From Treponema socranskii subsp. paredis ATCC 35535 (lineage in GTDB: Bacteria; Spirochaetota; Spirochaetia; Treponematales; Treponemataceae): DNA of 64,000 nt. A model generated the notes under the pieces. That model was not told the origin of the DNA, did not search any database, and saw only the letters and a program-made list of their open reading frames with translations. Numbering within the stretch: the first letter of the stretch is position 1; every line of letters starts with the position of its first letter. The position numbers and the translations under genes are program-made. Location of the stretch: positions 372,001 to 436,000 of the forward strand of contig KE332516.1 of NCBI GenBank assembly GCA_000413015.1. Direction: 5' to 3'. This document shows positions 4,901 to 63,534 of the stretch, piece by piece.

Positions 4901-6016
4901 AATAAAAAATTATTAAAAACGAAAAATACCGATGATATCCTAGCCTGTTTTATGTTATCCGAAAAAAATCTTCCGATATTATTAATTTGTCTTGCGACGA
5001 TTGCGGAACTTGCCGCCCGCGGATGCGCAAAAAAATTTAATTTTGCACGAAAACTTGCCGAATATATAAAACGAACGGGATGTCCGAACTGTCCCGATCG
5101 AAATGAACTGATGAGAGTGATTGCACTTGCACCTCTTGCCGAAAAAACTGTATTATTAAAGAGATTGAAGACGGCGGCATACGATGCTGCTTTGTATTTG
5201 ATGCAAAGCGAAAACGCTCCGATGCTTTCGGGAAGCAATCTTTTCGACGGCATACGATGGTTTAATAAAGAACTGTCGGACAGCAGCTTGACATATTATA
5301 TCGCCGCTGCAACTTTGTATGCGCCGGATGAAAAGAAGGATTTTGTTCGCGCGTTGTATTTTCTTCTCAATGATGCTAAAATAAAAGCGTCATTTAAGTG
5401 CGAATTATTTATTAATCAATTCGCACCGAATAAAGGTTCTAAAGCTTTACCTCCCGTCGGGAAGAGAGAAGCTGCAAAGATAACGACTGTCGGTTTATCC
5501 GGCAGTAAGCACAAGGAGTTGACTATGGAGACAACCACGGCAAAAAAACCGGCTGCGAAAAAAACAACGGCTAAAAAGCCCGTTGCAAAAAAGACTGTTG
5601 CTAAAAAAACAACAACGAAAAAGCCGGCGGCAAAAACGACGGCGAAAAAGCCGGCAGTAAAAAAAGCGGCTGCGAGCAAAACCGTTGCTAAAAAAACAAC
5701 AACGAAAAAGCCGGCGGCAAAAACGACGGCGAAAAAGCCGGCAGTAAAAAAAGCGGCTGCGAGCAAAACCGTTGCTAAAAAAACAACAACGAAAAAGCCG
5801 GCGGCAAAAACGACGGCGAAAAAGCCGGCAGTAAAAAAAGCGGCTGCGAGCAAAACCGTTGCTAAAAAAACAACAACGAAAAAGCCGGCAGCAAAAACGA
5901 CGGCAAAAAAGCCGGCAGTAAAAAAAGTCGCTGCAAAAAAACCCGCGGCGAAGACGACTGCAAAAAAACCGGCAGTAAAAAAAGCACCGGCAAAAAAGCC
6001 GGCGGCAAAAAAATAA
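1943..6016 (+). CDS. Alpha-amylase family (GH13) protein, frame continuous with histone-like tail
   Basis: The product would be 1357 residues. I chose GTG 1943 because GGAG lies five bases upstream and a TATAAT promoter ends at 1902; the open frame runs further up but there it translates a promoter. GH13 landmarks: DMVPNHTG (first D about residue 403), the nucleophile region IRFDAAM (D about 523), acid/base LLAEAFW (E about 588), and region IV NNPD (D about 649), where the usual NHD histidine is replaced. The catalytic domain follows a long N-terminal region (about 1-300). No signal peptide is visible, so it probably acts on intracellular glycans or trehalose/maltose-type substrates, but specificity cannot be read. 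Residues about 1195-1357 are a lysine/alanine histone-like repeat with no stop in between; that part also looks like its own gene. Either a true fusion or read-through from a lost stop is possible. Confidence 0.75.
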   Translation: MKISYNEFHVSKKVRDLCRFNETLFASSGNIIFSDIYQVRSFAEKLNALFDKRNEHEKRISAGALNAMGLIDEIFHYVCMLYRRDAAAKSFSNLLAKLDAEFGAAQMDDFLLSFIDEFPPHAVYIGKISARNYLSQSAFDEGTKRKRTNREQTLEELILLHLANENPAFKKFGILFDDTKLARNVLYAKSWDIIKSHFALLPPFGPFRHDLISMLKEPVVYNPESLKDQLDYIRTHWATMLGDLIKRLLAGIDTIQEEEKAAWQGGGEIEALPYSYENLSKEYERFSADSAWMPRVVLIAKMVLVWLDQLSKKYGRAITRLDEIPDEELDTLRDEGFTGLWLIGLWERSYASKRIKQINGNPEAAASAYSLYDYEIAHDIGGWNALENLRTRLWQRGIRLASDMVPNHTGMDSKWIVEKPDLFVQRKDCPFPQYTFNGENLSRDGRVGIYLEDHYYTKTDCAVIFKRIDNYTGNVRYIYHGNDGTGLPWNDTAQIDFLNPLAREEVMQEIIKVAKNFPIIRFDAAMVLAKKHIRRLWYPEPGHGGDIATRSETSLSTEEFNRAIPNEFWREVVDRIAAEVPDTLLLAEAFWMMEGYFVRTLGMHRVYNSAFMNMLKKEENQKYRDTIKNTLRFDPQVLKRFVNFVNNPDEETAVAQFGKGDKYFGVCTLMVTMPGLPMFGHGQIEGFEEKYGMEYTRAYRNESPDEGFIARHRRDIFPLMKKRRIFADVENFLFYDLWNEGGVDENVFAYSNSADGEYSIVIYNNAYERTAGRIKESVPYALKTGNGENDKMLVTRTIAEGLQLGDGGDTYCIFREQRSGLYYIRKNDDIRENGLFASLNGFESQVYTDIRQVADTDTHKYSILCETLAGRGAEDFDTFWEEIEYRELYKALESFAALLIPKVKMLLCPDDKASYEARTLTEKARQITEEVKESALAFYTVAKRFAENDGITLSSPETQFKQFNKIFLASVSSYGKLLNGKSPLEDNKKLLKTKNTDDILACFMLSEKNLPILLICLATIAELAARGCAKKFNFARKLAEYIKRTGCPNCPDRNELMRVIALAPLAEKTVLLKRLKTAAYDAALYLMQSENAPMLSGSNLFDGIRWFNKELSDSSLTYYIAAATLYAPDEKKDFVRALYFLLNDAKIKASFKCELFINQFAPNKGSKALPPVGKREAAKITTVGLSGSKHKELTMETTTAKKPAAKKTTAKKPVAKKTVAKKTTTKKPAAKTTAKKPAVKKAAASKTVAKKTTTKKPAAKTTAKKPAVKKAAASKTVAKKTTTKKPAAKTTAKKPAVKKAAASKTVAKKTTTKKPAAKTTAKKPAVKKVAAKKPAAKTTAKKPAVKKAPAKKPAAKK
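5354..5382 (+). promoter_or_regulatory. Candidate internal promoter for the histone-like gene
   Basis: TTGTAT (5354-5359), a 17-base spacer and TAAAAT (5377-5382) lie inside the amylase frame, about 140 bases before the internal ATG. Downstream, GTGCGAATT (5398-5406) and AATTCGCAC (5418-5426) form a perfect 9-bp hairpin in the predicted leader. Confidence 0.4.
5525..6016 (+). CDS. Histone H1-like lysine/alanine repeat protein (nested, in frame)
   Basis: This is a candidate separate product of 163 residues, METTTAKKPAAKKTTAKK and onwards, made almost only of Lys, Ala, Thr, Pro and Val. Such KKPAAKK tracts are typical of bacterial H1-like proteins that bind DNA non-specifically and compact the nucleoid. 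A perfect AAGGAG lies six bases before the ATG and an internal promoter candidate lies upstream, which argues for independent expression. The preceding stretch (about residues 1165-1194 of the amylase frame) reads like an untranslated leader rather than a domain linker. The protein contains four copies of a 29-residue unit. The same frame is shared with the upstream amylase gene, so both a free and a fused form may exist. Confidence 0.65.
   Translation: METTTAKKPAAKKTTAKKPVAKKTVAKKTTTKKPAAKTTAKKPAVKKAAASKTVAKKTTTKKPAAKTTAKKPAVKKAAASKTVAKKTTTKKPAAKTTAKKPAVKKAAASKTVAKKTTTKKPAAKTTAKKPAVKKVAAKKPAAKTTAKKPAVKKAPAKKPAAKK
5597..5940 (+). repeat. 87-bp tandem repeat in the histone-like gene, about four copies
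   Basis: Copies start at 5597, 5684, 5771 and 5858, exactly 87 bases (29 codons) apart. The first three are nearly identical and the fourth diverges at its end. The period is a multiple of three, so copy-number change would keep the frame. Confidence 0.9.
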
Positions 6017-31193: not shown

Positions 31194-32129
31194 ATGAATG
31201 TATTTTCAAAAATAACGGCCGCTATTGCCGTTCGGAGCCGCATTGCTTTAGCGGCAGCTGTGTTTGTTTTATGCAGCGGAACTTTCGCCGCGGCGGAGAC
31301 AAACGCGGCGCCCGCTTTTAAAGCCGAAGAACGAAATTTTCAAAGAAAGGGCATGAAAATATCCGGAGAGCTTTTTATACCCGACCGCGCATCTCCCATG
31401 CCGCTGGTCATCCTTTCGCACGGATTCGGCGGAAACCGCGGAGGCGTTAAAGGCTATGCCGAATCTTTTGCGGAACATGGTATTGCCGCATACATCTTCG
31501 AGTTTATCGGCGGCGGCGAGCATATCAAAAGCGACGGAAAAATGACGGAAATGTCGGTGCTTACCGAAGCCGAAGATTTGATTGTCATTGTCGATAACTT
31601 AAAAGCCGACGCGCGTTTTAAGGCGGAGCAAATTTTTTTATTCGGAGAAAGCCAAGGAGGCTTTGTTTCGACCTATGTCGCAGCAAAACGCCCCGCCGAC
31701 GTCGCGGGCTTGGTTTTATTATATCCCGCTTTTGTGATTCATGATTACGTTCGGCGGCGCACACCCGATCCGGAACGAATTCCCGATACAATGAAGCTGC
31801 TCGGAAAAACCGTCGGGCGCATTTATAATAAGGATGCACTCTCCTTTAATATTTATACGTTGATGCCGCAGTATTTCGGAAAAACACTCATCATTCACGG
31901 AAGCGCCGACTCGCTTGTGCCGCTGTCGTATTCGGAACGGGCGGTCAAAACCTTTCCCGATGCGAAGCTCATAACGCTTGACGATGAAAAGCACGTCTTT
32001 TACGGAAACGCAATGCGGAAAGCTGCGGAAGATGCGGTACAATTTGTGCAAAGCATAATCGGCGAAATCGCTGCTGCGCAAACGGGCACGCCGATAGCCT
32101 TTAAGGTGAAAGAATTAGGGACAAGATGA
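31194..32129 (+). CDS. Secreted alpha/beta hydrolase
   Basis: This 311-residue protein has an N-terminal signal-like segment (AVRSRIALAAAVFVLCSGTFAAAE, about residues 11-34). Then comes an alpha/beta hydrolase fold: VILSHGFGGNRGG (oxyanion loop), FGESQGGF with nucleophile serine, IIHGSADSLVPLSYSERA with the acid aspartate, and DEKHVFYG with the histidine. Such proteins act as esterases or peptidases in the periplasm or envelope. GGAG lies seven bases before the ATG at 31194. It diverges from the 133-residue unknown protein. Confidence 0.85.
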   Translation: MNVFSKITAAIAVRSRIALAAAVFVLCSGTFAAAETNAAPAFKAEERNFQRKGMKISGELFIPDRASPMPLVILSHGFGGNRGGVKGYAESFAEHGIAAYIFEFIGGGEHIKSDGKMTEMSVLTEAEDLIVIVDNLKADARFKAEQIFLFGESQGGFVSTYVAAKRPADVAGLVLLYPAFVIHDYVRRRTPDPERIPDTMKLLGKTVGRIYNKDALSFNIYTLMPQYFGKTLIIHGSADSLVPLSYSERAVKTFPDAKLITLDDEKHVFYGNAMRKAAEDAVQFVQSIIGEIAAAQTGTPIAFKVKELGTR

Positions 32130-32152
32130 CCATTGTCCGACGATGACATATA

Positions 32153-32473
32153 TTATTCATCCTTTAATAAGCCGCTCTTAATATATTTTTTCATCAATTC
32201 ATAAATATCGTTTTTTCGGTCTCCGCCGCGTCTTATTCCGACGGCAACAACAATGACTTCTATTTCCGTCTCTCGCACTCGATAAATAATTCTATACCGC
32301 TGTCCGACCGAACGGATTGAACGATATCCTTGTAAATTACCTTTCAGAGGTTTTCCGACTTTTAGCGGTTCGGATTTTAAAATTTCAATTTTTTCCAAAA
32401 TGAGCGCTTGTGATTTTTGATCCAATGACGCAATATAATCGGCTGCAATCTGCGTCAGTTTTATCGAGTACAT
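32153..32473 (-). CDS. RelE/ParE family toxin
   Basis: This 106-residue protein has the RelE/ParE superfamily pattern: MYSIKLTQIAADYIASLDQ, KIEILKSEPLKVGKPLKGNL, then the core YRSIRSVGQRYRIIYRVRE and a basic C-terminus. RelE-type toxins cleave ribosome-bound mRNA, while ParE-type poison gyrase; which applies cannot be decided. Its start overlaps the end of the antitoxin gene by 13 bases, so the pair is translationally coupled. Confidence 0.85.
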   Translation of the reverse strand: MYSIKLTQIAADYIASLDQKSQALILEKIEILKSEPLKVGKPLKGNLQGYRSIRSVGQRYRIIYRVRETEIEVIVVAVGIRRGGDRKNDIYELMKKYIKSGLLKDE

Positions 32474-32733
32474 AAAAGCTTTTGTTTAAATGAATCGAAA
32501 TCGACTAATTTATTTTGATTGATTTGCCGAATACCGACAGCAAGCTGTTCGGAAAGCTCTTCGTCGGATAAAATTTCGAGCGTTTCGCGAATACTTTCAT
32601 AGGTATCCCATTTTATTAAAGCAAACACTTCTCTACCATGATTGGTAATGGAAATTGTATCGTCATAATCCATAGTATGTTCAAGGGAAGTGATTTTTTT
32701 TCTGGCTTCCGTAATTGTCATCGGCGTAATCAT
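32461..32733 (-). CDS. Phd/YefM-type antitoxin
   Basis: This 90-residue protein has the Phd/YefM N-terminal DNA-binding part (MTITEARKKITSLEHTMDY, ISITNHGREVFALIKWDTYE) and an acidic C-terminal toxin-wrapping tail (EILSDEELSEQLAVGIRQI). It would neutralise the RelE-like toxin and repress the operon. Start at 32733 has GGAGG eight bases upstream; an internal ATG 12 bases later lacks a site. A 31-bp imperfect palindrome lies 21 bases upstream. Confidence 0.85.
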   Translation of the reverse strand: MITPMTITEARKKITSLEHTMDYDDTISITNHGREVFALIKWDTYESIRETLEILSDEELSEQLAVGIRQINQNKLVDFDSFKQKLLCTR

Positions 32734-32754
32734 TATCGATTCCTCCGCAGATAG

Positions 32755-32785
32755 TGTACATATTTTTGCACAAAATACAAGTACA
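32755..32785 (-). promoter_or_regulatory. Candidate operator of the toxin-antitoxin operon
   Basis: TGTAC and GTACA at the ends, with inner TATTTT and AAAATA, form a 31-bp imperfect palindrome just upstream of the antitoxin ribosome binding site, where Phd-type repressors bind. Confidence 0.4.
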
Positions 32786-32832
32786 AACAGCCGGTAATAA
32801 TGCGGCTGCCGCGGCAAATTCATTCTTCCCTC

Positions 32833-32934
32833 TTGACTCAAACCGAGCCTTAACTTGTATACTATTTTACGGAGGAAACCTATGAATGAATTTAACGGCG
32901 TAGCCGATACCATGCTTATTCCTATGGCGGCGCG
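32833..32934 (+). repeat. Direct repeat A: promoter and 5' end of methyltransferase gene
   Basis: These 102 bases are identical to 35484-35585 except for one base. It contains TTGACT (32833-32838), TATACT (32858-32863), GGAGG and the first 17-18 codons of the methyltransferase gene. Confidence 0.95.
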
Positions 32935-32968
32935 AAATACGGAATACGGACTGGTCTTTACCGTATAA
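32882..32968 (+). pseudogene. Truncated methyltransferase 5' end, 28-codon frame
   Basis: The frame starts like the gene at 35533 (MNEFNGVADTMLIPMAAR) and then turns into unrelated NTEYGLVFTV before a stop. Its promoter and ribosome binding site are intact, so a short peptide may be made, and the transcript would run on into the gene at 32987. Confidence 0.8.
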
Positions 32969-32986
32969 ATGTGATAATACATATCC

Positions 32987-34447
32987 ATGCGCTGTATAAA
33001 AAAAACTGCCGTCATTATCGCGTTCCTTGTATATTCGACGGGCTTTCTTTATGCGCAGGAGTCCGAATGCGATCTTGAAAATGAAAGCAGATACCAAATA
33101 ACAACCGAATTACGGCAAACCACCGGAGAGTTGCATCTCCGGATTAATGAAACGGATGCCGCCCTGTATTTAGACGGTATCAAACAGGGAAATCTTTTCG
33201 TCTGTTTTTCCTTGGGAACAGCGGCTAAAAAAAACTACGACGGTTCATACACGTACTTTGAACAAAACGGCATACGCGGCTGCGAATGGATACTGAAGGT
33301 TCCCGAAGGGGAACACATAATCGAAGTAAAAAAATTCGGCAAAAAGACGGCCCTAACAAAGGTATACGTATTCGGAAAAACACAGGTTGAACTTGATGTA
33401 AGCTTACAAGACGCGGATTTTGAATTGATTTCTTTTTCCGCCGAAAAAAAGCGTTTTAATCCGTATAATCCGGGTACATTGGGAATGTGCCGTTTCAACT
33501 TTTCCGTTACCGCTCCCGGAGAGGGTATGCTGGAAATATACGGCGCGGACTCCCGGCTTGTATATCGGAGAGGTTTAAAACCGTTCGCCGCCGAAAACGC
33601 ACACAGCACGTGGGACGGTCGAGACGAGAACGGAGCAATCGTTAAAAAAGGTATCTATACGGCTTATCTTCAAGTACGGGGAGCAGCCGGTACCGAGTTT
33701 ATACAATCCGAACCGCTTTCCGTCGCAGTAGATACGGCTCCATCCGTTCCTCTCAGCCTCTTTTCGACAAGCGGATTGTCGGCAGGTCTTGTTCCTGCAG
33801 CGCACCTTATGCCCAAAGGAAGCCTGTACGGCGCAGGTACGTGCGGCACCGATTTTTCCCTGAGCAAAGGTTTTAAAACCGCTCCGCTCTTCTTAGGCTT
33901 TGCCTACGCACCCTTGGAATTTTTGGAACTTTCATGTACGACGGGAACCGAAATAAAACTCTCACGAGCAAATCCCCTTATCATACAAGGCTGCTTAAAA
34001 GCCGTCTGCAAAAGCGGTATGTTCCGATACGGGGCACTTCTAGGAGGCGCGTATTCGTCCGGCAAAGCCGCAAGCGTTTTTAATGAAGGAATTTTACATA
34101 CGGGAAGCCTTTTTGCGATCGATCACGGTCCGCTGTGCATCGGAGTGTCGGAACAGGTATTTTTCGGTATCACAGGAGGAGAGCTGTACCCGCTTAACGG
34201 AAATTTAAAAACGGGAGTATCGGGCAGTTTTCAAAAAGGATTTTATGCGGTACATCTGTCTGCGGTTTTATATTCGCCTTTTTCATCAAGCGGCATGCAG
34301 GGTTTCGGCCGTATACAGGCAGGAAGCGATGTGTGTGTATTGATACCGAAAACCCTGTGTATGCCCGGCGCGGGAATATATTATACGCGGGATAAAAACG
34401 GTGAAAACGGCTTTACCTTCCGCATCGGAGCTGCCATATATCATTAA
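32987..34447 (+). CDS. Secreted envelope protein with PEGA-like and FlgD/Ig-like parts
   Basis: This 486-residue protein has a signal peptide (TAVIIAFLVYSTGFLYAQ). Residues about 45-135 resemble a PEGA-type repeat (LRINETDAALYLDGIKQGNL, VPEGEHIIEVKKFGKK). Residues about 175-250 carry a FlgD Ig-like motif (STWDGRDENGAIVKKGIYTA). The C-terminal half is glycine-rich alternating strands that may be a beta-barrel. Spirochaetes have many proteins built like this, with envelope location. It starts eight bases after an extended -10 box (TGTGATAAT, 32970-32978), lacks a Shine-Dalgarno and sits behind promoter copy A. GC is lower than in the neighbours. Confidence 0.7.
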   Translation: MRCIKKTAVIIAFLVYSTGFLYAQESECDLENESRYQITTELRQTTGELHLRINETDAALYLDGIKQGNLFVCFSLGTAAKKNYDGSYTYFEQNGIRGCEWILKVPEGEHIIEVKKFGKKTALTKVYVFGKTQVELDVSLQDADFELISFSAEKKRFNPYNPGTLGMCRFNFSVTAPGEGMLEIYGADSRLVYRRGLKPFAAENAHSTWDGRDENGAIVKKGIYTAYLQVRGAAGTEFIQSEPLSVAVDTAPSVPLSLFSTSGLSAGLVPAAHLMPKGSLYGAGTCGTDFSLSKGFKTAPLFLGFAYAPLEFLELSCTTGTEIKLSRANPLIIQGCLKAVCKSGMFRYGALLGGAYSSGKAASVFNEGILHTGSLFAIDHGPLCIGVSEQVFFGITGGELYPLNGNLKTGVSGSFQKGFYAVHLSAVLYSPFSSSGMQGFGRIQAGSDVCVLIPKTLCMPGAGIYYTRDKNGENGFTFRIGAAIYH

Positions 34448-34469
34448 ATCGTGCGTTTATAAAACTTAA

Positions 34470-34523
34470 TCAACAACCCCGACGCAGAGCACAGGAATAT
34501 TAAACCCTCCACACGAATAAAAA
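34470..34523 (-). repeat. Dispersed repeat FYSCGGFN family, degraded copy 2
   Basis: It keeps both ends of the repeat (AACCCCGACGCAG and TATTAAACCCTCCACACGAATAAA on the plus strand) but lacks the centre. With copy 3 at 35390 it flanks the BrnT/BrnA genes in direct orientation. Confidence 0.7.
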
Positions 34524-34624
34524 ATACCGGTATTTTGGAAACTATATGAACTATGGCATTTTGAAAGGATTGATAAGAATACATAAAAGAAATACAATTT
34601 AGATATACAAAAGAGGTGTTTTTA

Positions 34625-34897
34625 ATGACAGTCGTTCAAGGGCGTTTTGAATGGGATAGCGAAAAGAATGAAATAAACATTAAAAAGCACGGATTCTCTT
34701 TTGAAGAAATTCTTAGCGTGTTCGATGATCCTCATTTTATCGAAAGAGCGGATTTAGAGCATTCAACTATCGAAGAAGAAAGATTTATTGGATTCGGCAG
34801 TATAAACGGATTAGTAATCGTTGCAACAATTTTCATAGAGCGGGATCGAATAAGAATTATCTCTTCACGTCTTGCAACAAAAAAAGAGGAGGCTTAA
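34625..34897 (+). CDS. brnT: BrnT-family toxin, C-terminus cut by insertion
   Basis: This 90-residue RNase toxin has the BrnT pattern FEWDSEKNEINIKKHGFSFEE, then VFDDPHFIE and a late RIRIISSRLATKKEEA. BrnT is a RelE-fold ribonuclease inhibiting translation. AGAGG lies eight bases before the ATG at 34625. The usual family end (KKERR-YYE-like) is missing: the stop codon is created at the left edge of a 135-bp insert. Joining the sequence across the insert would extend the protein by about 11 residues beginning FYYEQQ and overlap the antitoxin start. Confidence 0.85.
   Translation: MTVVQGRFEWDSEKNEINIKKHGFSFEEILSVFDDPHFIERADLEHSTIEEERFIGFGSINGLVIVATIFIERDRIRIISSRLATKKEEA
34884..34895 (+). repeat. 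12-bp direct repeat, left copy
   Basis: AAGAGGAGGCTT here and at 35031-35042 flank the hairpin element and look like a target site duplication. Confidence 0.8.
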
Positions 34898-35030
34898 ATT
34901 GAACGTCTGAATAGCGTCGTTCAATTTAACTTCGAGTTTTCTTTCAGAAAACTCGTTCATCGAACTGTGCGCAAGATGCGCACGAATTGCACAGCTCCTA
35001 AATCTGAAGATTTACTCGCTGTGCAATTTT
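34896..35030. mobile_element. MITE-like 135-bp element inserted between brnT and brnA
   Basis: It is bounded by 12-bp direct repeats and has imperfect terminal inverted repeats (AAATTGAAC at the left; AAAATTGCAC on the opposite strand at the right). Inside are strong hairpins: CGAGTTTTCT/AGAAAACTCG, GTGCGC/GCGCAC, and AATTGCACAGC/GCTGTGCAATT enclosing AAATC/GATTT. It encodes nothing. No transposase of a matching family is in the window. Confidence 0.75.
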
Positions 35031-35048
35031 AAGAGGAGGCTTTTTATT

Positions 35049-35306
35049 ATGAACAACAAAAAAACTTTGACAGCTGAAAGAGTTGCAGAAATCAGAGCAA
35101 AGGGAATTGATTTTTCAGATATTCCCGAAATTACGGATTTTACCGGCTTTCAACCCAGATACCCGCAATATTTTAAACCTAAAAGAGAGCAAGTTTCAAT
35201 TAGATTAAGTAAATATCTCGTTGATCACTTCAAGGCAATGGGTAAGGGGTGGCAGACAAAAGTAAATGATTTTCTAATGGAAGCGGTAAATAAAGGTCAA
35301 ATATGA
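35049..35306 (+). CDS. brnA: BrnA-family antitoxin
   Basis: This 85-residue protein has the BrnA pattern: LTAERVAEIRAKGIDFSDIPE, then FKPKREQVSIRLSKYLVDHF (ribbon-helix-helix) and GWQTKVNDFLMEAV. BrnA binds BrnT and autoregulates the operon. AGAGGAGG lies nine to ten bases upstream of ATG 35049 and is the right-hand copy of the direct repeat, so insertion of the hairpin element preserved this ribosome binding site. It is now separated from brnT by 151 bases instead of overlapping. Confidence 0.85.
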   Translation: MNNKKTLTAERVAEIRAKGIDFSDIPEITDFTGFQPRYPQYFKPKREQVSIRLSKYLVDHFKAMGKGWQTKVNDFLMEAVNKGQI

Positions 35307-35389
35307 AAACTTACTTAAAGTGTATGTTTTTGTATATTTTCACTTTATCTTTTTTTCCTTTTTGATTTGTTACCGGTTTTTAAAGTTTA

Positions 35390-35460
35390 ACAACCTCGAC
35401 GCAGCCTCGCAGCGAAGCTTCAAGCGGCGTCGGGGTATTAAACCCTCCGCACGAATAAAT
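35390..35460 (-). repeat. Dispersed repeat FYSCGGFN family, copy 3
   Basis: This full-length copy contains GACGCAGCCTCGCAGCGAAG followed by CTTCAAGCGGCGTC on the plus strand. It lies between brnA and direct repeat B; no gene is seen in the 226-base gap. Confidence 0.85.
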
Positions 35461-35483
35461 TTCCCCTGTCAACAAATTCCCCC

Positions 35484-35585
35484 TTGACTCAAACCGAACC
35501 TTAACTTGTATACTATTTTACGGAGGAAACCTATGAATGAATTTAACGGCGTAGCCGATACCATGCTTATTCCTATGGCGGCGCG
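35484..35585 (+). repeat. Direct repeat B: promoter and 5' end of the intact methyltransferase gene
   Basis: It matches 32833-32934 with one mismatch. It includes the -35 TTGACT (35484-35489), -10 TATACT (35509-35514), a 19-base spacer and GGAGG seven bases before ATG 35533. Confidence 0.95.
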
Positions 35586-36342
35586 GATTTATGTGTCAAA
35601 ACGCTTTCCCGAATATTTTTATGACAAAACGGCTTTGGAACTGGAAGGAAAAATCCCTGCGGATGCGCTTGAGCGGATTCAAAAATCATCTTCCGAATAC
35701 ACGATGCTGGCTTCCGTTGCGCGCTATTATAATTTTGACGAAATGATTAAAAATTTTCTTAATCGACACGAAAGGTGCAATATCGTCAATCTCGGCGCGG
35801 GACTGGAAACGGCCGCTTTTCGGCTGCATGCGGACGGCACGATTTTTTACGAAATCGATTTACCCGAAGTGATCGACCGGCGAAAAAATATTTTGGGTGC
35901 AAAAGAAAACGAAAAGCTTATCGCAGCCGATATTTTTGCTTTGGAATGGACTGCGCACATCGACACTTCGCTCCCATCTTTGCTGATTGTCTCGGGCGTA
36001 TTTCAATATTTCCGCGAAGAAAAAATCGTGCGGTTTTTGTCGGACGTAAAAAAGCACTTTCCGAAAGGAGAATTGATTTTCGATGCGACGAATGAAATCG
36101 GCATAAAATATGCGAATAAGTATGTGCAAAAAACGGGCAACACGTCGGCGCAAATGTATTTTTACGTAAACGACGGTCGGGCTTTTGCGAAAAAATGCGG
36201 TACGGAGCTCGTTGAACAGCGTACTTTTTATACCGCAGCGCGGAAAATGCTGAAACGCAAACTCAAGCTGTACACCCGTATCGCGATGAAAGTGTGCGAC
36301 GACGGCGGAAGAACGATCATCCTGCATTTAAAGCTGAACTGA
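35533..36342 (+). CDS. Class I SAM-dependent methyltransferase, PPM1/TcmP type
   Basis: This 269-residue enzyme has the leucine-carboxyl/TcmP-like O-methyltransferase layout: N-terminal helices (YVSKRFPEYFYDKTALELEG), the SAM loop NIVNLGAGLETAAFRL (about residues 79-94), the acidic ribose-binding FYEIDLPEVIDRRKN, and LLIVSGVFQYFREEKIVRFL. Substrate is unknown. The start is fixed by a promoter and GGAGG. Its first 18 codons with the whole promoter are duplicated 2651 bases upstream, enclosing the accessory genes. Confidence 0.85.
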   Translation: MNEFNGVADTMLIPMAARIYVSKRFPEYFYDKTALELEGKIPADALERIQKSSSEYTMLASVARYYNFDEMIKNFLNRHERCNIVNLGAGLETAAFRLHADGTIFYEIDLPEVIDRRKNILGAKENEKLIAADIFALEWTAHIDTSLPSLLIVSGVFQYFREEKIVRFLSDVKKHFPKGELIFDATNEIGIKYANKYVQKTGNTSAQMYFYVNDGRAFAKKCGTELVEQRTFYTAARKMLKRKLKLYTRIAMKVCDDGGRTIILHLKLN

Positions 36343-36382
36343 ACAGAGCGGACGAGCAAGGGCTTTGATGCGATCGAAACGC

Positions 36383-38260
36383 TTATCGGCTTTGTTCTGC
36401 GAGACGGTCTCTTAACAATTTTGCGCGTGCGTGATTCGGAACAAGGGCAAGCGCATAACCTGCCGAACGGAGCGCTTCCCTCGTTTTACCCTGTGCGCTA
36501 TAGATGAGCGCCATGCGGTATTGGATTTCCGCCCGCTGCATCGCGTCCGCCGCACGGACGGAAGAGGCCGCATAGAGATCGAGCGCCTGTATGTTTGAGC
36601 CGAGGCTTTCGTATATCATCGCAAGGTTCATGCACGACGGCGTAGAGACGAGGGAGGAAATCGTTTTGCCGTCCGTGCCGCCGCCGCTTTCGTACACGCA
36701 GTATTCGTAGAGTCGTATCGCCGTATCGGCAAGCCGGCTGTAAGCTGCAAACCACGCCGCATATTCGGCTTCGCGGATCGTCATATCGCGGACATTCGAA
36801 GCGCACGCTTCCCAAAAATCGCGCGACGGGTCAAAACCGTATTTTGCGGCCATGCTCTTTCGAAAAAGGCGGAAAGCGTCGTCGTAACGCCGGTAAGCTA
36901 AAAGGCGGTTCAGCGCAAATTCGAAAATAACGTCGGGATAAACGTTTGCGCCGACGCTGCCGCGTTCGAGTTCGTTCCATACGTCGGATATTTTTTCATC
37001 CGGTGTCAGAGAAAAATCGGTTTCGTATTTTAAATTCAAGCGCGCGATATACAGCACGGGATTATTGATTCTCTCGAGGCTTCGATCGATGCGGTATTCG
37101 GCGTCGCTCACCGGAATCTTTGCACGCCTGTCGTAAGCTTCCATTTTGAGCGTCGCAAGGCCGTTGTCCCTGAGCGTAAGTTCCTGCATATCTTCCGCCG
37201 GAGGCATACTCGTCCGCCGTGCAAAATCGGCATAGGCGATGAGAGCGGGCGCATAATCGGGCCACGCGTTTACCGTATCGGTCAAAAGTCGGCTCGCTTC
37301 GTCGTCGTTGCCGTTTGCTTCGGCATACAGCGCGCTGTTGACGAAGAGAGAAGGCAAAAGAGAGTTCACGTTTTCGTCAGCGATGTTCATACCGCCGGTA
37401 TTCCGCTCCATTTGGGCAATGACGCTGCGCCTCGCCCGCTCGGCTTCTTCCGTCTCCGAAAGCGCGATATGAGAGTCGGAAAGAACGGCGGCTATTTCAA
37501 CGGGCGACACTCTGTGACGGGAACGAATCGAAGATGTCGGATAGAGCGAGTGGGCTTTTTCGGCATAGGCGGCCGCTTCTCCGAAACGGCGCGAATCGAA
37601 CATGACGAGACTCCAAAAAAACGCGTCTTCGACCTCAAAGCAGTCGGCGGGTTTTACCGAATACGCCGTATCGTAGTTGCCGTCTTTTAAGCAGATAAGC
37701 GCCGCGTTGCGTAGCCAGTACCCGTCTTTCGAGCCGGCGTATGCGTCGCAAAAAATCGAAAAAAATCGATTGTCGAAATATTCGGAAGCGCTTGCTCTTT
37801 TTTCGGATGCAAGTTCACGTAAGTACGCTTCGGAATACACCGAGCCGAAGCGCGTACCGCGAAGGCATTCGGCGATCTTTACCGCTTCCGCCCCCCTTCC
37901 GGAGCGCATCAAAAACTGCGCGTACACCGCGGACATTTCGGGATTTTTCGGATTGCGCTTCAATCCGCGCACGAGCGTCTTTTCCGCAAGAGCCGTCTCT
38001 CCCATTTCAAAATAGCGGCGGTATATGCCGATGCGCGACCACGAATCGTATACGTATTTTTCGGCTTTTTTCAATTCCGAAAGGGCATCCCTATCCTGCC
38101 CCTGTTCGCTGAGCGCGTCGATTTCATCGAGCATGCCGGTAAACGACGAACGGGATGCGCTCATCTTGCACGATGCGGCACATATAATGAGATAAGAATT
38201 AATAATTAATAAAAACAGAGGTAAAAAGCGCGGCGCAAAATGTTCAGGCAGTTTTTTCAT
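36383..38260 (-). CDS. TPR-repeat lipoprotein
   Basis: The product is 625 residues with a signal ending in a possible lipobox (IICAASC, about residue 31), so it is likely anchored in an envelope membrane. The rest is a helical TPR solenoid: SELKKAEKYVYDSWSRIGIY, ETALAEKTLVRGLKRNPKNP and a C-terminal pair QALDLYAASSVRAADAMQRAE and ALRSAGYALALVPNHARAK. TPR lipoproteins act as scaffolds in envelope assembly or transport; no partner can be read. GAGGGG precedes ATG 38260. It follows nusB by 20 bases. Confidence 0.75.
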   Translation of the reverse strand: MKKLPEHFAPRFLPLFLLIINSYLIICAASCKMSASRSSFTGMLDEIDALSEQGQDRDALSELKKAEKYVYDSWSRIGIYRRYFEMGETALAEKTLVRGLKRNPKNPEMSAVYAQFLMRSGRGAEAVKIAECLRGTRFGSVYSEAYLRELASEKRASASEYFDNRFFSIFCDAYAGSKDGYWLRNAALICLKDGNYDTAYSVKPADCFEVEDAFFWSLVMFDSRRFGEAAAYAEKAHSLYPTSSIRSRHRVSPVEIAAVLSDSHIALSETEEAERARRSVIAQMERNTGGMNIADENVNSLLPSLFVNSALYAEANGNDDEASRLLTDTVNAWPDYAPALIAYADFARRTSMPPAEDMQELTLRDNGLATLKMEAYDRRAKIPVSDAEYRIDRSLERINNPVLYIARLNLKYETDFSLTPDEKISDVWNELERGSVGANVYPDVIFEFALNRLLAYRRYDDAFRLFRKSMAAKYGFDPSRDFWEACASNVRDMTIREAEYAAWFAAYSRLADTAIRLYEYCVYESGGGTDGKTISSLVSTPSCMNLAMIYESLGSNIQALDLYAASSVRAADAMQRAEIQYRMALIYSAQGKTREALRSAGYALALVPNHARAKLLRDRLAEQSR

Positions 38261-61932: not shown

Positions 61933-63534
61933 TTAAAATTTAACAGTATCGATATCTTCCGGGCCGACGACGCAAAACCACCTGCCGCCGCCTGCAGCCC
62001 AATATTTTCGAAATGCGCGCAGTACATCGTCGGCGCTCACCGAAAAAAGTTCGGCGATTTTTTCGTCGTATGCATACGGGTCTCCGAACATGAGGAGGCT
62101 GTATGCGAGGCGCGAAGCGACGCCGGCGTTCGTTACGGACGAAGCGTAAAACGAATTGACGTATTGATTTTTATAGCCTCGAAGCCTGTCGGCGACGGAT
62201 GAAAAAATATACGTGCCGTCGTCGTTTTTTCCGTCGATCACTTTGCCCGATGCGAAAATCGCTTGTGCTTCTTTTTCAAAGCGCACGACGTTCTCCAAAT
62301 CGCTCGCCTTAAATATAAACACGTTCGCAAGTCCCGCCCGCATCGGAATGACGGATGCGCTCGGCGAATAGCATGCGCCGTATTTTTCGCGCACAACGTT
62401 GAAAAGCACTTGCGAATACATGGAGGCGGCGAGTGAAGCTGCAAGCATATCGTCGTCAAAGAGCGAGGGGCCGCTCATCGCTTTTTCAAGATAGCCCGTG
62501 CCGGAAGCGGCTTTGCTTCCGATGACGATCGGTTCTCCCGATACGGTAAGCGGCGGTACATCGGGGGAGCTAAGATCGTACGCCCGAGAGGGAATCGAAC
62601 CGAAAGCGGCGTCGAGCTTTTTTAATAATTTTCTTTCATCGTAATTTCCGACCGCGACGATCATAATGCGACGAGCGTCCGTATCGCGCTCGTGCAGGAA
62701 GCGCATCGCTTCAACCGTAATATTGCCGATCGATTCGGGTTTTACCGATGCGCTTGCCGCATAGGGATGATCTTTAAAAATCGTCCGCGTCATCCGATAG
62801 GCGAGCATGCTTTCCGGATCGCTTTCCAAGCGCTGCATTTCCTGCGCGTAATCGGTCATAAGATTTTTATATTGCTGCGGATTATACAAAGGATGCAAAA
62901 ACGCATCCGTAAAAACCGGCAGCACTTTATCGAAATAATAATCGATACAGCTCATCGAAAGGACGGCGCCTTCACGCGAAACCTGCGGCAGAATCGAAAA
63001 GCCCGTTTCGTACGCGAGAGCGCGGAGCTCGTCGTATGTGTACTTTTCCGAACCACGAGTCATCATATCGAAGAGCGCCTTTTCCAAACCGGAGGTTTCG
63101 GGAGAAAGATAGGAAGTCCCGCCTTTGACGATGACGGAAAGAGAGAGTTTTCCGTTCGCAGTATTTTTTCGGACGTAGAGCGGGATGCCGTTCGAAAGGC
63201 GGAACTCCCGCACATCCTTCCGAACGGAAACGCACCCCTCGGCGGCTTTTACGTTATCGGTTTTTACCGACGCGCACGAAAGGATAAAAGCGGAAAACAA
63301 AAGCGCGCAGAGCGGAACCGATATCCGCCGAAAGAAAGCAAACCGCGCGGAGCGGATCGACACGGGAACACGGCGCGGGAACCACGTGTGCCGAAAGAAA
63401 GCGTATCTCTCGCCGCCGCGCCCCGCGGACGCACGCGAATCGAAACAAGCAACAAGCCGGACACAGCCTCGCAGCGAAGCTTCAAGCGGCGTCGAAGGAT
63501 TAAACTCTCCGCACGAATAAAAAAACGAACGCAT
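61933..63534 (-). CDS. M16 peptidase-like lipoprotein with repeat-encoded N-terminus, probably inactive
   Basis: The frame gives 533 residues from ATG 63534, which has AAGGA six to seven bases upstream. An alternative ATG 63549 overlaps the previous stop codon. Residues about 4-29 (FYSCGEFNPSTPLEASLRGC) are encoded by the dispersed repeat; the lipoprotein signal (PLCALLFSAFILSC, cysteine about residue 87) comes only later, so the native start was probably near it. The body is a pitrilysin/M16 fold (VIVKGGTSYLSPETSGLEKA) where the catalytic HxxEH is replaced by SGLEK, making it a non-catalytic partner. It follows another M16-type gene. Confidence 0.75.
   Translation of the reverse strand: MRSFFYSCGEFNPSTPLEASLRGCVRLVACFDSRASAGRGGERYAFFRHTWFPRRVPVSIRSARFAFFRRISVPLCALLFSAFILSCASVKTDNVKAAEGCVSVRKDVREFRLSNGIPLYVRKNTANGKLSLSVIVKGGTSYLSPETSGLEKALFDMMTRGSEKYTYDELRALAYETGFSILPQVSREGAVLSMSCIDYYFDKVLPVFTDAFLHPLYNPQQYKNLMTDYAQEMQRLESDPESMLAYRMTRTIFKDHPYAASASVKPESIGNITVEAMRFLHERDTDARRIMIVAVGNYDERKLLKKLDAAFGSIPSRAYDLSSPDVPPLTVSGEPIVIGSKAASGTGYLEKAMSGPSLFDDDMLAASLAASMYSQVLFNVVREKYGACYSPSASVIPMRAGLANVFIFKASDLENVVRFEKEAQAIFASGKVIDGKNDDGTYIFSSVADRLRGYKNQYVNSFYASSVTNAGVASRLAYSLLMFGDPYAYDEKIAELFSVSADDVLRAFRKYWAAGGGRWFCVVGPEDIDTVKF
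63450..63523 (-). repeat. Dispersed repeat FYSCGGFN family, copy 4, inside a coding frame
   Basis: It closely matches the copy at 35390-35460 and runs in the same strand sense. In this copy the repeat is in frame with, and ahead of, the lipoprotein signal of the M16-like protein. Confidence 0.9.

Follow-up and report, generated by a model that had tools for sequence, protein, structure and literature searches.

In a window of 64,000 nucleotides from Treponema socranskii subsp. paredis ATCC 35535 (contig KE332516.1, positions 372,001 to 436,000), the promoter and 5' end of a methyltransferase gene occur twice, as direct repeats on either side of an envelope-type protein gene and a brnTA toxin-antitoxin pair. 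The left copy is probably a recombination scar resulting from an exchange between two similar promoters of MerR-type architecture, P and P', and not a target duplication. The methyltransferase gene at the right copy is the original.

The repeat and its surroundings

The direct repeat (32826-32934 and 35477-35585) is 109 nt long with a spacing of 2651. The copies are identical at 107/109 positions (98%), and the alignment places the two mismatches (left/right) at 32831 (T/C) and 32847 (G/A). An earlier note on this DNA had described 102 bp with one mismatch, 2651 bases upstream; this is exact when counted from 32833. Each copy includes the promoter, an SD (GGAGG) and 53 nt (17 2/3 codons) of the methyltransferase ORF (35533-36342). 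Apart from this pair, direct repeats of 40 nt or more are limited in the 64 kb to a tandem array (5538-6013, period ~87 nt), one dispersed repeat of 71 nt and a weak family of 41 nt, so the 109-bp repeat is far beyond chance. A search of the whole 2.74-Mb genome carrying the window identified no third place besides the left and right copies. The features of the region are the following:

31194-32129, + strand: alpha/beta hydrolase gene (Pfam Hydrolase_4), left border of the variable region
32153-32733, - strand: toxin-antitoxin pair of the ParE/RelE and Phd/YefM type (relBE; Pfam), directly left of the left copy
32826-32934, + strand: left copy of the 109-bp repeat, holding the promoter, the SD and 53 nt from the start of the methyltransferase frame (repeat search, alignment)
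32833-32863, + strand: left promoter, TTGACT-19-TATACT, of MerR-type architecture (spacer length as in PMC9909328)
32882-32968, + strand: stub ORF of 28 codons, MNEFNGVADTMLIPMAARNTEYGLVFTV, which shares the frame of the envelope ORF and stops 18 nt short of that ORF
32987-34447, + strand: envelope-type protein gene, 486 aa, with a signal-peptide-like start by inspection
34466-34521, + strand: dispersed Treponema repeat in its short form, to the left of brnTA (repeat search)
34625-34897, + strand: brnT toxin gene (Pfam BrnT_toxin)
34896-35030, + strand: 135-bp dispersed element between brnT and brnA (empty site in Treponema sp. Marseille-Q4130, locus L110)
35049-35306, + strand: brnA antitoxin gene (Pfam BrnA_antitoxin)
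35389-35459, + strand: the same dispersed repeat in a longer form, to the right of brnTA (repeat search)
35454-35476, + strand: upstream flank of the right copy, common to the single copy of T. socranskii ATCC 35536 (comparison with that strain)
35477-35585, + strand: right, original copy, as judged by comparison with relatives (repeat search, alignment)
35484-35514, + strand: right promoter, TTGACT-19-TATACT (sequence comparison)
35533-36342, + strand: intact SAM-dependent methyltransferase gene of the leucine carboxyl methyltransferase family (Pfam LCM, relatives)
36383-38260, - strand: TPR protein gene (Pfam TPR), right border of the variable region

This inventory bears out the contents previously listed between the copies: an envelope-type ORF, brnTA and two copies of a dispersed repeat (34498 and 35436). 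It also agrees with the earlier reading of the left copy as a broken stub whose promoter points toward the envelope ORF, the right methyltransferase gene being intact. The envelope ORF exhibits weak matches to FlgD-Ig and PEGA, under the Pfam cut-offs. BrnT and BrnA both score over the cut-offs of their Pfam families and their genes are adjacent on the same strand, as in BrnT/BrnA toxin-antitoxin pairs. The sequence between the window copies contains no 3' fragment from a second methyltransferase. Relatives of the methyltransferase were not found in viral contigs, and the T. socranskii literature yielded nothing specific to this case.

The brnTA segment (34472-35404, compared with L110) is 95-97% identical to Marseille-Q4130 and ~90% to a second genome (G066). 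Because this identity exceeds that of the flanking genes and the methyltransferase (~90% and ~81%), a recent transfer of brnTA among oral treponemes is probable. On either side of the 135-bp element lies a copy of the 12-bp direct repeat AAGAGGAGGCTT (34884-34895 and 35031-35042), which duplicates the brnA SD. Its insertion alters the BrnT C-terminus, which is 11 residues shorter than in L110 (KKEEA* against KKEEAFYYEQQKNFDS*). Relatives of this element occur at G000:C1:1884798, in T. socranskii and in other treponemes. L110 has an additional piece of the sequence that follows brnA, placed before brnT. The dispersed repeat on both sides of brnTA is represented there by fragments of a sequence of ~120 bp with a conserved tail, TATTAAACCCTCCRCACGAATAAA. 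It is present in more than 10 copies in the same genome and also in other Treponema genomes; further fragments in the window lie at 63451-63521 and, on the minus strand, at about 1734. Rfam identified no known RNA family in 32400-36500, and no match to the ~120-bp repeat in the region searched.

Variable region and order of the two copies

The TPR gene and the adjoining end of the methyltransferase are kept in three close relatives, T. socranskii ATCC 35536, G063 and Marseille-Q4130, with 90-92% identity for the TPR gene. T. socranskii ATCC 35536, the closest relative with a species name among those found, is 90% identical to the window over 3.2 kb at the right side. On the left side, the hydrolase gene is kept in G063 and Marseille-Q4130 and is present as a remnant in T. 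socranskii. G063 also shares 32140-32825, a sequence with relBE and its upstream region, at 99% identity, which extends as far as the first base of the repeat.

The stretch left of the methyltransferase is different in the window and in each of the three relatives. The window carries relBE, the stub, the envelope gene and brnTA. The order in G063 is relBE, promoter, a large lipoprotein of the InlB-repeat type, a GIY-YIG protein, a histidine kinase, a response regulator and an ECF-transporter-like protein; this cargo of 6.1 kb is unlike that of the window, and after it come a promoter and a methyltransferase with an internal deletion. Only the decayed hydrolase is present in T. socranskii ATCC 35536. 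In Marseille-Q4130, two separate remnants of the methyltransferase, with 5' and 3' ends, lie at different places. One place carries restriction-modification-like genes, the other a hydrolase, a leucine-rich protein, the same kinase and regulator as G063, and brnTA. On contig C17 the remnant comes after brnTA, where the right copy stands in the window. The region between the hydrolase and TPR genes is an accessory-gene (plasticity) hot spot.

The methyltransferase itself is also variable among relatives. Internal deletions in G063 (L107, 15205-15342) and in the C17 remnant (L110, 10761-10892) share the junction 35622|36289, while the remnant on contig C10 of Marseille-Q4130 (L086, 9997-10160) has another, at about 35660|36305. 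Short matches are found at the ends of each of these large deletions. In the T. parvum gene (L078, 10303-10422), 120 nt rich in CAAGCAGACA-like repeats are inserted in frame.

T. socranskii ATCC 35536 (L075) includes one complete methyltransferase copy and no cargo. The single copy that the earlier note expected of a strain lacking the accessory genes is thus found; however, it does not carry the left flank, since 21/23 bp before the repeat match those before the right copy of the window. Because this upstream flank is that of the right copy, the right copy is the original, in its old setting, and the left copy is derived. In T. putidum, homology starts at the promoter and stops at the methyltransferase stop codon.

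In G063, a promoter occupies the same position as the left promoter of the window, after the same relBE flank, and matches the methyltransferase promoter at 37/39 positions. Downstream of it, the sequence is different from the methyltransferase 5' end. This sequence is found again in Marseille-Q4130 (95 bp at 88%), behind a like promoter and just right of the hydrolase gene. Because the left promoter of G063 and Marseille-Q4130 continues into a different, common sequence, the left site already bore a similar promoter (P'), independent of the methyltransferase 5' end. The left promoter position is older than the left copy, which seems to have been written onto it. BLAST identified no relatives of the sequence following the scar. 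Its first 17 bp weakly resemble the post-P' sequence of Marseille-Q4130, with an anchored score, for a match sought after the fact, that is reached by ~0.4% of random windows. This is suggestive of a trace of the post-P' sequence.

The two window copies differ at 2/109 positions, while the right copy differs from T. socranskii ATCC 35536 by 6/109 mismatches and a 9-bp gap and from G063 by 10/109 mismatches and a 10-bp gap. Two substitutions are common to both window copies and absent from both G063 copies, whose left and right promoters agree with each other at the same positions. A 9-bp deletion before the start codon is present in both window copies and neither in T. socranskii nor in the right copy of G063, the left G063 copy ending short of this site. 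The copies are therefore more alike within than between genomes, although the promoter homology is short (39 bp) with few informative sites. This is the pattern that conversion or recent exchange within each genome would leave, as judged from the two substitutions and the deletion. The suggestion of the earlier note that recombination was involved is supported.

Alternative origins of the left copy

We propose that the hot spot held two very similar MerR-type promoters, P on the right before the methyltransferase and P' on the left beside relBE. P and P' would have recombined in the lineage of the window. The exact pathway would be template switching, unequal exchange or the conversion of a short tract. 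The genomes compared include no same-species strain in an intermediate state. The left site would thereby have received the window's own P with 53 nt of the methyltransferase, ending at an illegitimate join.

Several other origins were considered. One, the main idea of the earlier note, is that a mobile module of 2.65 kb inserted and thereby duplicated 102-109 bp of target at the gene start. Direct repeats do flank the cargo, and the cargo-free relative has one copy. After such an insertion, however, the left copy should keep the old upstream flank, but the single copy of T. socranskii bears that of the right copy. Because the old flank sits at the right copy, target duplication is disfavoured, and target-site duplication on insertion was discarded on this evidence; no empty site with the left flank was found. 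A survey of the cargo ORFs with Pfam identified no recombinase or transposase gene between the copies. Moreover, the cargo differs from relative to relative, and brnTA is found elsewhere with its own flanking repeats and its own distribution, so the whole 2.65 kb was rejected as a single mobile module. To our knowledge, target duplications of ~109 bp are not typical of known transposons. We consider this origin very improbable.

An old tandem duplication of the whole methyltransferase gene, the left one having eroded while conversion kept the repeat identical, is improbable as well. The two Marseille-Q4130 remnants with their 5' and 3' ends would fit it, but they lie at different places and the C17 remnant occupies the position of the right copy. 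The lack of a methyltransferase 3' fragment between the window copies also argues against it.

Homology-facilitated illegitimate recombination, a process known from transformable bacteria, is rather unlikely. A recipient with relBE and, directly after it, a complete P-methyltransferase would have been joined by incoming DNA carrying the envelope gene, brnTA and P-methyltransferase, by homology on the right side and by an illegitimate join inside codon 18 on the left. The left copy would then be the recipient's stump and the right copy the donor's gene. This single step would account for a left end that breaks off raggedly within a codon, for the 98% identity and for the right gene being intact. 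It is in line with the methyltransferase of T. socranskii, which is close to the hydrolase without cargo, and with the two separate remnants in Marseille-Q4130. However, none of the relatives examined has a methyltransferase directly after relBE, and the P' of G063, which occupies the same left position and runs into another sequence, requires an extra step. A local rewrite is also favoured by the 17-bp remnant that follows the scar. The likeness to the known process is that one homologous and one illegitimate end would yield a stump and an intact gene; the difference is that the donor and recipient states are not seen among the genomes compared here.

Consequences for expression and comparison with known systems

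If the left copy is a scar of an exchange between P and P', it may provide the envelope gene with a promoter, a ribosome site and a leader peptide, through termination and re-initiation. The envelope gene would be expressed from the left promoter, and its translation by re-initiation behind the stub is plausible. The SD test identified an SD for the stub ORF and none before the envelope start. This is weak evidence for coupling, because 13/47 longer ORFs of the window are also without an SD (present in 34/47, against 11% of random positions). The recombination mechanism is ordinary; the points of interest are the regulated promoter as recombination partner and the possible promoter capture. 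Recombination between promoters may have supplied a surface-protein gene of an oral treponeme with a ready promoter and start signal, in a case that yields a dated order of events, right copy original and left copy derived. A broader and doubtful idea is that near-identical MerR-type promoters are repeated landing or exchange points in oral treponemes, swapping accessory genes and placing newcomers behind a regulated promoter, ribosome site and leader peptide. If the promoters of one regulon often anchor recombination, accessory genes could join an existing regulon on arrival.

MerR-family promoters have a spacer of 19-20 bp between -35 and -10, with a dyad centred in the spacer (PMC9909328). 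Both window copies have a 19-bp spacer; a simple sigma-70 scan allows spacers of 16-18 only and so did not list the methyltransferase promoter. G063, T. socranskii and T. putidum retain an unaltered spacer-centred dyad, TTAAA-6-TTTAA. Promoters of this type are also found ahead of a MerR-family gene in Marseille-Q4130, of a flavodoxin-like ORF and of a cupin gene in T. parvum. MerR control of these promoters may be supposed from this architecture. Unlike the MerR-regulated promoters described, those of the window have both arms of the dyad changed, and no cognate MerR-family regulator was found in the genome. The sole PF13411 match there is a 117-aa frame which is not adjacent and, by inspection, not of the expected kind; the window promoters may therefore be unregulated in their own genome.

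The scar also resembles the products of conversion or unequal exchange between short dispersed homologies in plasticity hot spots. Similarity within the genome is higher than between genomes, the cargo changes at a conserved place and one join is ragged. It differs from these in that the homology here is a MerR-type promoter and in that the scar puts a promoter, an SD and a start codon before another gene.
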